From Spirochaetaceae bacterium (GTDB taxonomy: Bacteria > Spirochaetota > Spirochaetia > DSM-27196 > PWMO01), in contig REDW01000066.1 in assembly GCA_007693325.1 (NCBI GenBank), forward strand, positions 1-64,000: DNA of 64,000 nucleotides, read 5' to 3'. A model generated the notes under the pieces. It searched no databases. It saw only the letters and a list, made by a program, of their open reading frames with translations, and was not told the origin of the DNA. The position numbers and the translations under genes are program-made. This document shows, one piece after another, positions 43,060 through 44,296 of the stretch; within the stretch, counting starts at the first letter, position 1; the number at the start of each line of letters is the position of its first letter.

Positions 43060-43143
43060 GCCCGAGTGGTGAAACTGGTAGACACGCTAGGTTCAGGGTC
43101 TAGTGGCCTTACGGCTGTGGAGGTTCAAGTCCTCTCTCGGGCA
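43060..43143 (+). tRNA. tRNA-Leu (anticodon CAG)
   Basis: GCCCGAG..CTCGGGC acceptor, anticodon loop TTCAGGG with stem CTAGG/TCTAG, long variable arm, T-arm GGAGGTTCAAGTCCTCT. Confidence 0.95.
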
Positions 43144-43146
43144 GAA

Positions 43147-43185
43147 AGAAAGCCGGGTGCCTTTTGGTGCCCGGCTTTCTTTTTG
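43147..43185 (+). terminator. Rho-independent terminator after tRNA-Leu
   Basis: AGAAAGCCGGGTGCC-TTTT-GGTGCCCGGCTTTCTTTTT. Confidence 0.92.
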
Positions 43186-43329
43186 CCAAGGATGGAGAGG
43201 ACTTGAAACGGAGGTGCGTGCGCGAATACCTGGAGCGCCGAGGCACAGGAGGTGCCGAGAGCACCGGAGGCGGGTCGGAGGGAGCGGACACGATGTCCGC
43301 GACTGGAGACCAAGTCCTCTCTCGGGCAT

Positions 43330-43367
43330 CAAAAAAGGTGATTGGCTTCATGTCGATCACCTTTTTC
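43330..43367 (+). terminator. Second terminator-like hairpin after the duplicated tRNA-Leu 3' end
   Basis: AAAAAAGGTGAT-tggcttcatgtcg-ATCACCTTTTTC. Confidence 0.75.
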
Positions 43368-43563
43368 GTTGGGGCCCTGAGGAGGACTTGAAACGCAGGC
43401 ACGGCGCGAGCCGGCGAGCGCAATCCGGCAGGATGCCGGATTAGTGCCGGAGGCGGCCTGGAATGCCGAGCAATGATCGGCTGGGATACCGCACTCGTTT
43501 TCTTTATGTCGCTGCGTAATGACGCAGGAGAAATCTTCTCCAAGGACAGTCGTCTCCCGGGTC

Positions 43564-44061
43564 CTACCTTTTTGCGAGCTTGATCGCCTGCCGCTCCAAC
43601 TGCTCACTGAGCCAGATACCGTTCGCGCGCATCGTGTTTATTGTTGATGCAATGTCTATCGCCTCCCCCCGGTGGATCGCGTGAATAATCAATCCAAGTG
43701 ACCCGGTGACGGACAGGCCGTTCAGTCTTGCAACGCGCCTGCCGATCGCTTCGTCAATGCACACCAGAGCGATCTGCTTTTCAAGAGCTGTCTGAATCAC
43801 TGAAGCCTCTCCACGATCAAGGGCCAATACGAGATCCTTGCGGACATTTACATCACTATGACTGATCTCAATGGGGCTACCCAGGTCGAGAATGTTCTGC
43901 CCGACCGCCGCGGTTGATCCGGCGCGTATTTCCCGAACGACTTCCCTCGGTACAAGCACTCGATGAAAGTGGCGGAGCACTACTTCAGGATGGGAAACAC
44001 CTGCTGCCAACGCGATGATCGGTCCAGTATTGATAACCAGACTAATGTGGGAGGTCGACAT
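43564..44061 (-). CDS. PIN-domain (DUF3368-type) toxin
   Basis: VINTGPIIALAAG..RVLVPREVVREI..LDRGEASVIQTALEKQIALVCIDEAIGRRVARL. Confidence 0.82.
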   Translation of the reverse strand: MSTSHISLVINTGPIIALAAGVSHPEVVLRHFHRVLVPREVVREIRAGSTAAVGQNILDLGSPIEISHSDVNVRKDLVLALDRGEASVIQTALEKQIALVCIDEAIGRRVARLNGLSVTGSLGLIIHAIHRGEAIDIASTINTMRANGIWLSEQLERQAIKLAKR

Positions 44062-44296
44062 CGTTCATCAACTCGTCGGGATCAAAGTTCATTGTACTGA
44101 CTTGGTATCGGGAAAGCTGCAGCAGAAATGACACTCTGGACATCCCCAACATGTCGGCCGCGACAGCGGATGAGATCTTCCCCATCTCATACAGCTTGGC
44201 CGCCATAGCCATCTTTGCTTCTGCCTCGAACTCACGCGCGGTGAGTTGTAGTAAATCGGGCAACGCCTCCGGGTAGTCGATCTGCAAATGGTTCAT
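44042..44296 (-). CDS. UPF0175-family antitoxin
   Basis: EAEAKMAMAAKLYEMGKISSAVAADMLGMSRVSFLLQLSRY; overlaps the PIN gene by 20 nt. Confidence 0.82.
   Translation of the reverse strand: MNHLQIDYPEALPDLLQLTAREFEAEAKMAMAAKLYEMGKISSAVAADMLGMSRVSFLLQLSRYQVSTMNFDPDELMNDVDLPH

Follow-up and report, generated by a model that had tools for sequence, protein, structure and literature searches.

Why should the 3′ end of a tRNA be written out a second time downstream of its own gene? In the window, by which we mean the whole 64,000-nucleotide stretch of spirochaete DNA analyzed here, the 18-nt sequence CAAGTCCTCTCTCGGGCA ends a tRNA-Leu gene at 43126–43143 (tRNA-Leu nt 56–73) and is present again, exactly, at 43311–43328, and an inverted T-arm fragment, GAGGACTTGAAACG, is found at 43197 and at 43382. 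Both pairs are spaced 185 nt apart, the distance from the tRNA 3′ end to the next inverted fragment is 53 nt in both units, and the intervening hairpins, each followed by a T-run, are unlike in sequence (GCCGGGTGCC vs GGTGAT). An earlier note on this DNA had described the arrangement; each of its coordinates was verified, as was its view that the hairpins differ in sequence and are structurally equivalent.

The element is a tRNA-linked repeat (TLR), and the Rfam family RtT (RF00391) belongs to the same class. Its parts follow one another in the order tRNA, terminator, antisense T-arm, structured core of ~100 nt, 18-nt tRNA 3′ copy and terminator, with the following positions:

43060–43143, plus strand: host tRNA-Leu(CAG), called by ARAGORN and the Rfam tRNA model
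43140–43187, plus strand: first terminator hairpin and U-run (T1); inverted repeat I1, 94% complementary, then CTTTCTTTTTG
43191–43325, plus strand: unit 1 of the tRNA-linked repeat RNA; interval of model R1, 134 bits
43195–43207, plus strand: antisense T-arm of unit 1, GAGAGGACTTGAA, complementing the T-loop and 3′ T-stem of tRNA-Leu
43242–43256, plus strand: P3b hairpin of unit 1, GGCAC-AGGAG-GTGCC, with GGA in the loop; from sequence, covariation and loop survey
43284–43300, plus strand: P4 hairpin of unit 1, GCGGACA-CGA-TGTCCGC; from sequence and covariation
43311–43328, plus strand: copy of tRNA-Leu nt 56–73 closing unit 1; exact over 18 nt
43327–43371, plus strand: second terminator hairpin and U-run (T2); inverted repeat I3, 88% complementary
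43376–43508, plus strand: unit 2, decayed; 73 bits, 3′ end without the tRNA copy
43382–43392, plus strand: antisense T-arm of unit 2, GAGGACTTGAA; from sequence

The two units of the window differ in preservation, with scores of 134 vs 73 bits and a tRNA copy of 18 vs 4 nt. The folding z-score is −3.2 for unit 1 and −1.0 for the decayed unit 2; two intact units in relatives reach −6.0 and −7.5. Rfam searches at gathering and permissive thresholds matched the unit to no known family. Retron a1/a2 sequences, IS110 bridge RNAs and TnpB/IscB guides were considered and rejected, since the unit contains no enzyme gene and its 18-nt 3′ copy is out of keeping with such systems. Farther along, at 43564–44296 on the minus strand, adjacent genes for a DUF3368 protein and a UPF0175 protein are convergent with the tRNA and have the look of a toxin–antitoxin-type pair.

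Is the locus one of a kind? The earlier note had proposed looking for the unit after tRNAs of related genomes and modeling its covariance, and had named a unique locus lacking covariation as the outcome that would speak for chance tRNA remnants. Positions 43060–43500 match DNA after tRNA genes across the order; most of these matches cover the tRNA only, and many reach into the element. The aligned relatives share one layout, with the antisense T-arm at about +50, then GAAACGNAG, the core, and the tRNA 3′ copy at about +166. The covariance model R1 was built from 21 aligned units (alignment A1, MAFFT), including window unit 1 and excluding window unit 2; because it contains the T-arm-derived ends, R1 is mildly biased toward tRNA-adjacent sites, tRNA bodies being absent from the model. 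In the window's own genome, where a fraction of the first-look candidates was scored, R1 recovered units 1 and 2 and no units beyond the window locus. In wider searches it had matches in 30 of the 46 genomes from the order, in 100 of 248 from the class Spirochaetia and in 8 of 117 Omnitrophota genomes. Downstream of a same-strand tRNA lay 128 of the 136 units examined, the host tRNAs being of eight kinds (Leu, Met, Pro, Arg, Ala, Asn, Gly and Ser), and 14 of the 21 Omnitrophota units inspected were directly 3′ of a tRNA. The sequenced isolate Breznakiella homolactica has a unit 3′ of tRNA-Met (L114). A terminator hairpin and U-run occupied the first spacer in 72 of 82 cases surveyed across the family, and the largest number of units seen, 27, was arranged in arrays in one complete genome. 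This is a large RNA family in Spirochaetia and Omnitrophota, with a well supported covariance model and without an Rfam entry. Since similar DNA is found again behind tRNAs elsewhere in the order and the model scores are high, a chance origin is rejected; the family and its covarying core contradict the chance remnants that the earlier note had kept in view.

Among broader contigs, strong matches carried spirochaete titles, mostly Spirochaetales or Spirochaetaceae, and pattern matches outside the spirochaetes were mostly due to chance, one of seven checked adjoining a tRNA (Omnitrophota contig L126). The unit had no match in plasmids, and two exact patterns, a narrow query, found none in viral contigs; on these narrow patterns, carriage by phages is unsupported. 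Contig breaks fall right at the 3′ end of tRNA-Leu and within a TLR array (the end of G003:C122, L236, and the start of G003:C13, L239), so that draft assemblies probably under-count the units. In one Omnitrophota locus (L226, G265:C125), a tRNA-Arg-like gene, possibly a disrupted tRNA, deviates in its 3′ part after the start of the T-loop, and the arm of the unit there matches the altered sequence. A hairpin motif like GCGTACCG(N)GAGGAACGC was also seen in or beside some units (L063/L046, L023 from position 1691, L061, L197 and L178).

The pattern of substitutions in the core favors selection acting on an RNA structure of the tRNA strand. In alignment A1, 94.3% of cells pair, compared with 72.2% after shuffling and 30–42% with slid partners, and two-sided changes are found in 27 of 36 pairs, including all five pairs of the helix 23–27/77–81 and all but one of the six in each hairpin. 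When 136 units were considered, in an alignment fitted to the model, 20 of 21 predicted pairs had changed on both sides. Core pairs include 72 G·U against 14 A·C (p = 1e-10), 43 against 14 with the most extreme pair removed (p = 2e-4), and 14 against 5 when tallied by pair (p = 0.06), p-values that are optimistic since the units are related. An excess of G·U over A·C favors an RNA of the tRNA sense strand over a DNA hairpin. The earlier note had also argued against a simple recent duplication, and the covariation bears this out: conserved ends with changing, equivalent hairpins reflect structural selection.

The two ends of a unit are matched to the local tRNA. In 115 distinct units, agreement of the direct copy with this tRNA is 0.66–0.98 at each position of nt 56–73, vs 0.2–0.6 for other tRNAs except at one universally conserved position, and it drops toward background at nt 55 and beyond nt 73. 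Encoded CCA is included in the copy (L228, L230, L234). The antisense arm covers nt ~54–64, that is, the T-loop and the 3′ T-stem, and leaves the acceptor strand unmatched. Where copy and tRNA differ at nt 56–65, the arm agrees with the tRNA 34 times and with the copy once, many of these cases being at the edge position 56; in window unit 2 and in L041 the copy is lost and the arm kept. Compensation between arm and copy within their pairing, P1, was sought and not found, the arm tracking the tRNA instead. We infer P1 as a pairing of the arm with the copied 3′ end; because both of its strands match the tRNA, its covariation is apparent, and P1 is left without independent support.

For 89 of 122 units, the closest relative of the core lay beside another tRNA isoacceptor; 24 of 122 had theirs in their own genome, vs 4.7% expected. 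Cores that are 89% identical stand after tRNA-Met in one genome and after tRNA-Pro in others, of different families, each with arm and copy fitted to its local tRNA. Over 205 nt, the DNA of the window unit itself shares 89% identity with that of a unit in a genome from a different family, and the genes neighboring the two tRNAs are dissimilar. At an orthologous tRNA-Pro(CGG), one member of the genus carries the terminator, followed by unit and copy, immediately past tRNA nt 73; the site is empty in the window's genome and in a third genome, with flanks that align on both sides. Being patchy across the order and missing at this orthologous locus, the family is dispensable. These cross-tRNA relationships and presence/absence sites agree with the mobile-like behavior that the earlier note had envisaged: the elements act as a transferable family. 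Among 26 arrays, the proximal unit outscores the last in 20 and scores lower in 2 (p = 1e-4), and its tRNA copy is the longer of the two in 13 arrays and the shorter in 1, a trend that the window array fits; either new units originate beside the tRNA, or selection is stronger there. The ends may be adapted to a new tRNA when the unit inserts, or may be brought into line afterwards by gene conversion or quasi-palindrome correction.

Other tandem units with tRNA-derived ends were encountered along the way. Downstream of tRNA-Pro(CGG) in G001:C54 (L258/L245) are different tandem repeats of ~69 nt, each closing with the tRNA 3′ end (CCGCCCAGCCCGA) and having unlike middles and common hairpin ends; a similar unit is single-copy in L257. 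Downstream of tRNA-Gly(GCC) in G264 (L185), after reverse-complement position 1296, units of 146/148 nt have a core unlike that of R1 and the same order of terminator, inverted T-arm, core and tRNA 3′ copy as the R1 family. The L185 units suggest that the logic of the ends is broader than one core family.

What, then, could the units be for? We consider it probable, at roughly 65% with any CsrA step excluded, that they encode TLR-class RNAs released from tRNA read-through. Read-through of the tRNA-Leu terminator would yield a transcript that contains at least one unit, and each unit would fold to a structured RNA of ~135 nt in which the core hairpins are enclosed by P1, made of the arm and the copied 3′ end. 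With CCA where encoded, the copied nt 56–73 would recreate the tRNA 3′-processing signal, whereby the RNA may be excised and matured like a stable-RNA 3′ end. The fitted ends at eight tRNA kinds, the covariation, the G·U excess, the same-strand tRNAs and the terminators all support a read-through RNA. In a further step, the GGA-rich unpaired loops might bind an RNA-binding protein, most likely CsrA, by analogy with E. coli RrB. Several GGA motifs do occur in unpaired loops, as in CsrA-sequestering RNAs: the P3b loop has GGA in 115 of 127 units, and a unit holds 3.99 unpaired GGA vs 1.89 expected, a difference whose z-score is inflated by kinship among units. A csrA gene is present in 45 of 47 genomes searched, that of the window included. 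Together with the likeness to E. coli TLRs, these features argue for a read-through RNA that may bind CsrA; P1 without independent support, a P4 loop that is CGA instead of GGA in about two fifths of units, the prediction for tyrT-type TLRs of E. coli discussed below, and the patchiness of the family weaken the case. We regard binding to CsrA via the GGA loops as a tentative proposal, somewhat more doubtful than not.

The same distribution of cores could be read as that of a selfish or mobile element without a host role, its core copied to tRNA 3′ ends by some machinery, the 18-nt copy being an insertion footprint and the structure being kept since the RNA is the mobile form. Core relatives at other tRNAs and in the same genome, the near-identical cores at tRNA-Met and tRNA-Pro of different families, the within-genus presence/absence with its junction exactly at tRNA nt 73, and the copy numbers of up to 27 in tandem arrays with a better kept proximal unit are all in its favor. 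Yet the unit is without an enzyme gene, no exact-pattern viral match or plasmid match was found, no mechanism is known for rewriting both ends to a new target, and gene conversion could equally produce the dynamics; we regard it as unlikely, with about one chance in four. Equally unlikely is the general form of this idea, that widespread minimal mobile RNA elements with unrelated cores colonize tRNA 3′ ends, rewriting the antisense T-arm and the 18-nt copy for each tRNA. If true, a mobile, end-rewriting RNA element would imply an undescribed mechanism of insertion or end copying.

The behavior of the arm raises another reading, in which the unit regulates its tRNA in cis: in the read-through precursor the arm would pair with tRNA nt 54–65 and compete with the T-stem, and the copied 3′ end would compete for the arm; tRNA maturation would then hinge on read-through or on the length of the array. 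An arm that tracks the tRNA 34 times against once for the copy, and that survives loss of the copy, is what this reading would have. The same count is also expected from an independently mutating copy, with many cases at edge position 56; moreover, the conserved core of ~100 nt and its GGA loops are left unexplained, and many tRNAs of the same lineages have no unit, all of which makes cis regulation improbable. Far less probable still is an origin of the repeats as scars that integrative elements left at their tRNA attachment site, or as tRNA remnants present by chance. The ~18-nt tRNA 3′ end does resemble the attachment-site cores of integrases, and direct repeats stand in tandem; such scars would carry neither a covarying core of ~100 nt nor a fitted arm, nor would they recur at eight tRNA kinds. 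Covariation rules out an integrase scar, a chance remnant and a simple tandem duplication, and, with the family distribution, refutes the simple scar or remnant reading.

The read-through RNA that we prefer has its closest counterparts in E. coli, where TLRs have been known since Egan and Landy in 1978 (cited in PMC8144298). They are defined there by an 18–19-bp 3′ end identical to that of the upstream tRNA or rRNA, and as of 2021 were without known function, the binding of CsrA and Hfq being the first hint (PMC8144298). The rrnB TLR RNA is a 173-nt read-through product between T1 and T2 whose 3′ end is 3 nt beyond the repeat, a proposed RNase E processing signal; its 113–115-nt form (RrB-short) associates with Hfq and binds CsrA in vitro, and tyrT-type TLRs are predicted non-binders of CsrA (PMC8144298). 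That the rrnB unit gives a read-through RNA ending past its repeat favors a read-through small RNA for the spirochaete units as well. By the E. coli definition, the stable RNA is upstream on the same strand both in the window and in nearly all units of the family; the last 18–19 bp equal its 3′ end in unit 1 and differ from it in unit 2; and one to several units per locus at several loci per genome are seen across the family, with one locus found in the window's genome.

The earlier note had known of no named element of this architecture, yet E. coli TLRs and Rfam RtT share the layout, down to the inverted T-arm, which is also present in the E. coli tyrT/V and gammaproteobacterial RtT copies. 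The repeat architecture that it reported stands; the core, the loss of the copy in unit 2, the limits of the arm and the gammaproteobacterial name had been overlooked. Like the tyrT–tyrV repeats (rttR), the spirochaete units are directly 3′ of a tRNA, ~180–200 nt long and tandem, with an 18–19-nt tRNA-identical 3′ end and an inverted T-arm at the unit start. The models are of similar length (RtT 130, R1 134) and call the same E. coli intervals; the core sequence and parts of the fold are different. Run unfiltered on E. coli tyrT/V, R1 ranks the four TLRs 1, 2, 3 and 5, end to end, at just 7–15 bits, and it scores 18 and 14.7 bits on two gammaproteobacterial RtT loci; RtT itself scores 133–138 bits at the E. 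coli locus (gathering threshold 45). Of 229 gammaproteobacteria, 52 have RtT; a tRNA precedes seven of the eight RtT loci inspected, and most of these show fitted 18–19-nt copies and inverted arms. RtT had no match in the window, in the family loci or in 148 Spirochaetia, and R1 none in gammaproteobacteria at E ≤ 0.001; with no cross-detection at genome scale, the two are distinct branches or have convergent cores. Common ancestry with the E. coli units appears likely, and the spirochaete units are apparently a hitherto undescribed branch of the TLR class.

The E. coli RNAs RrA, RrB and RrF, located between T1 and T2 of rrnA, rrnB and rrnD (PMC8144298), are likewise units between two terminators that have GGA loops and close by repeating the 3′ end of the stable RNA upstream of them, and contain GGCCCGGAGGGTGGCGGGCAGGACGCCCGCC, close to the P4 arm of the spirochaete unit. 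They differ in that the host is 5S rRNA and in giving no clear full-length R1 match (10.4 bits, out of register); binding to CsrA and Hfq belongs to E. coli RrB, the spirochaete units being known here from sequence. GGA recurs roughly every 20 nt in hairpin and internal loops, as it does in CsrB/RsmZ-type RNAs; unlike these, the spirochaete units are tied to tRNAs, have no promoter of their own identified, and include some CGA loops. E. coli TLRs have been known for almost 50 years; what is new is a family of the same architecture in Spirochaetia and Omnitrophota, at eight tRNA kinds and with orthologous sites that have or lack the element, which makes testable a coupling between CsrA and tRNA transcription, and likewise the way in which such an element adapts its ends to each tRNA.
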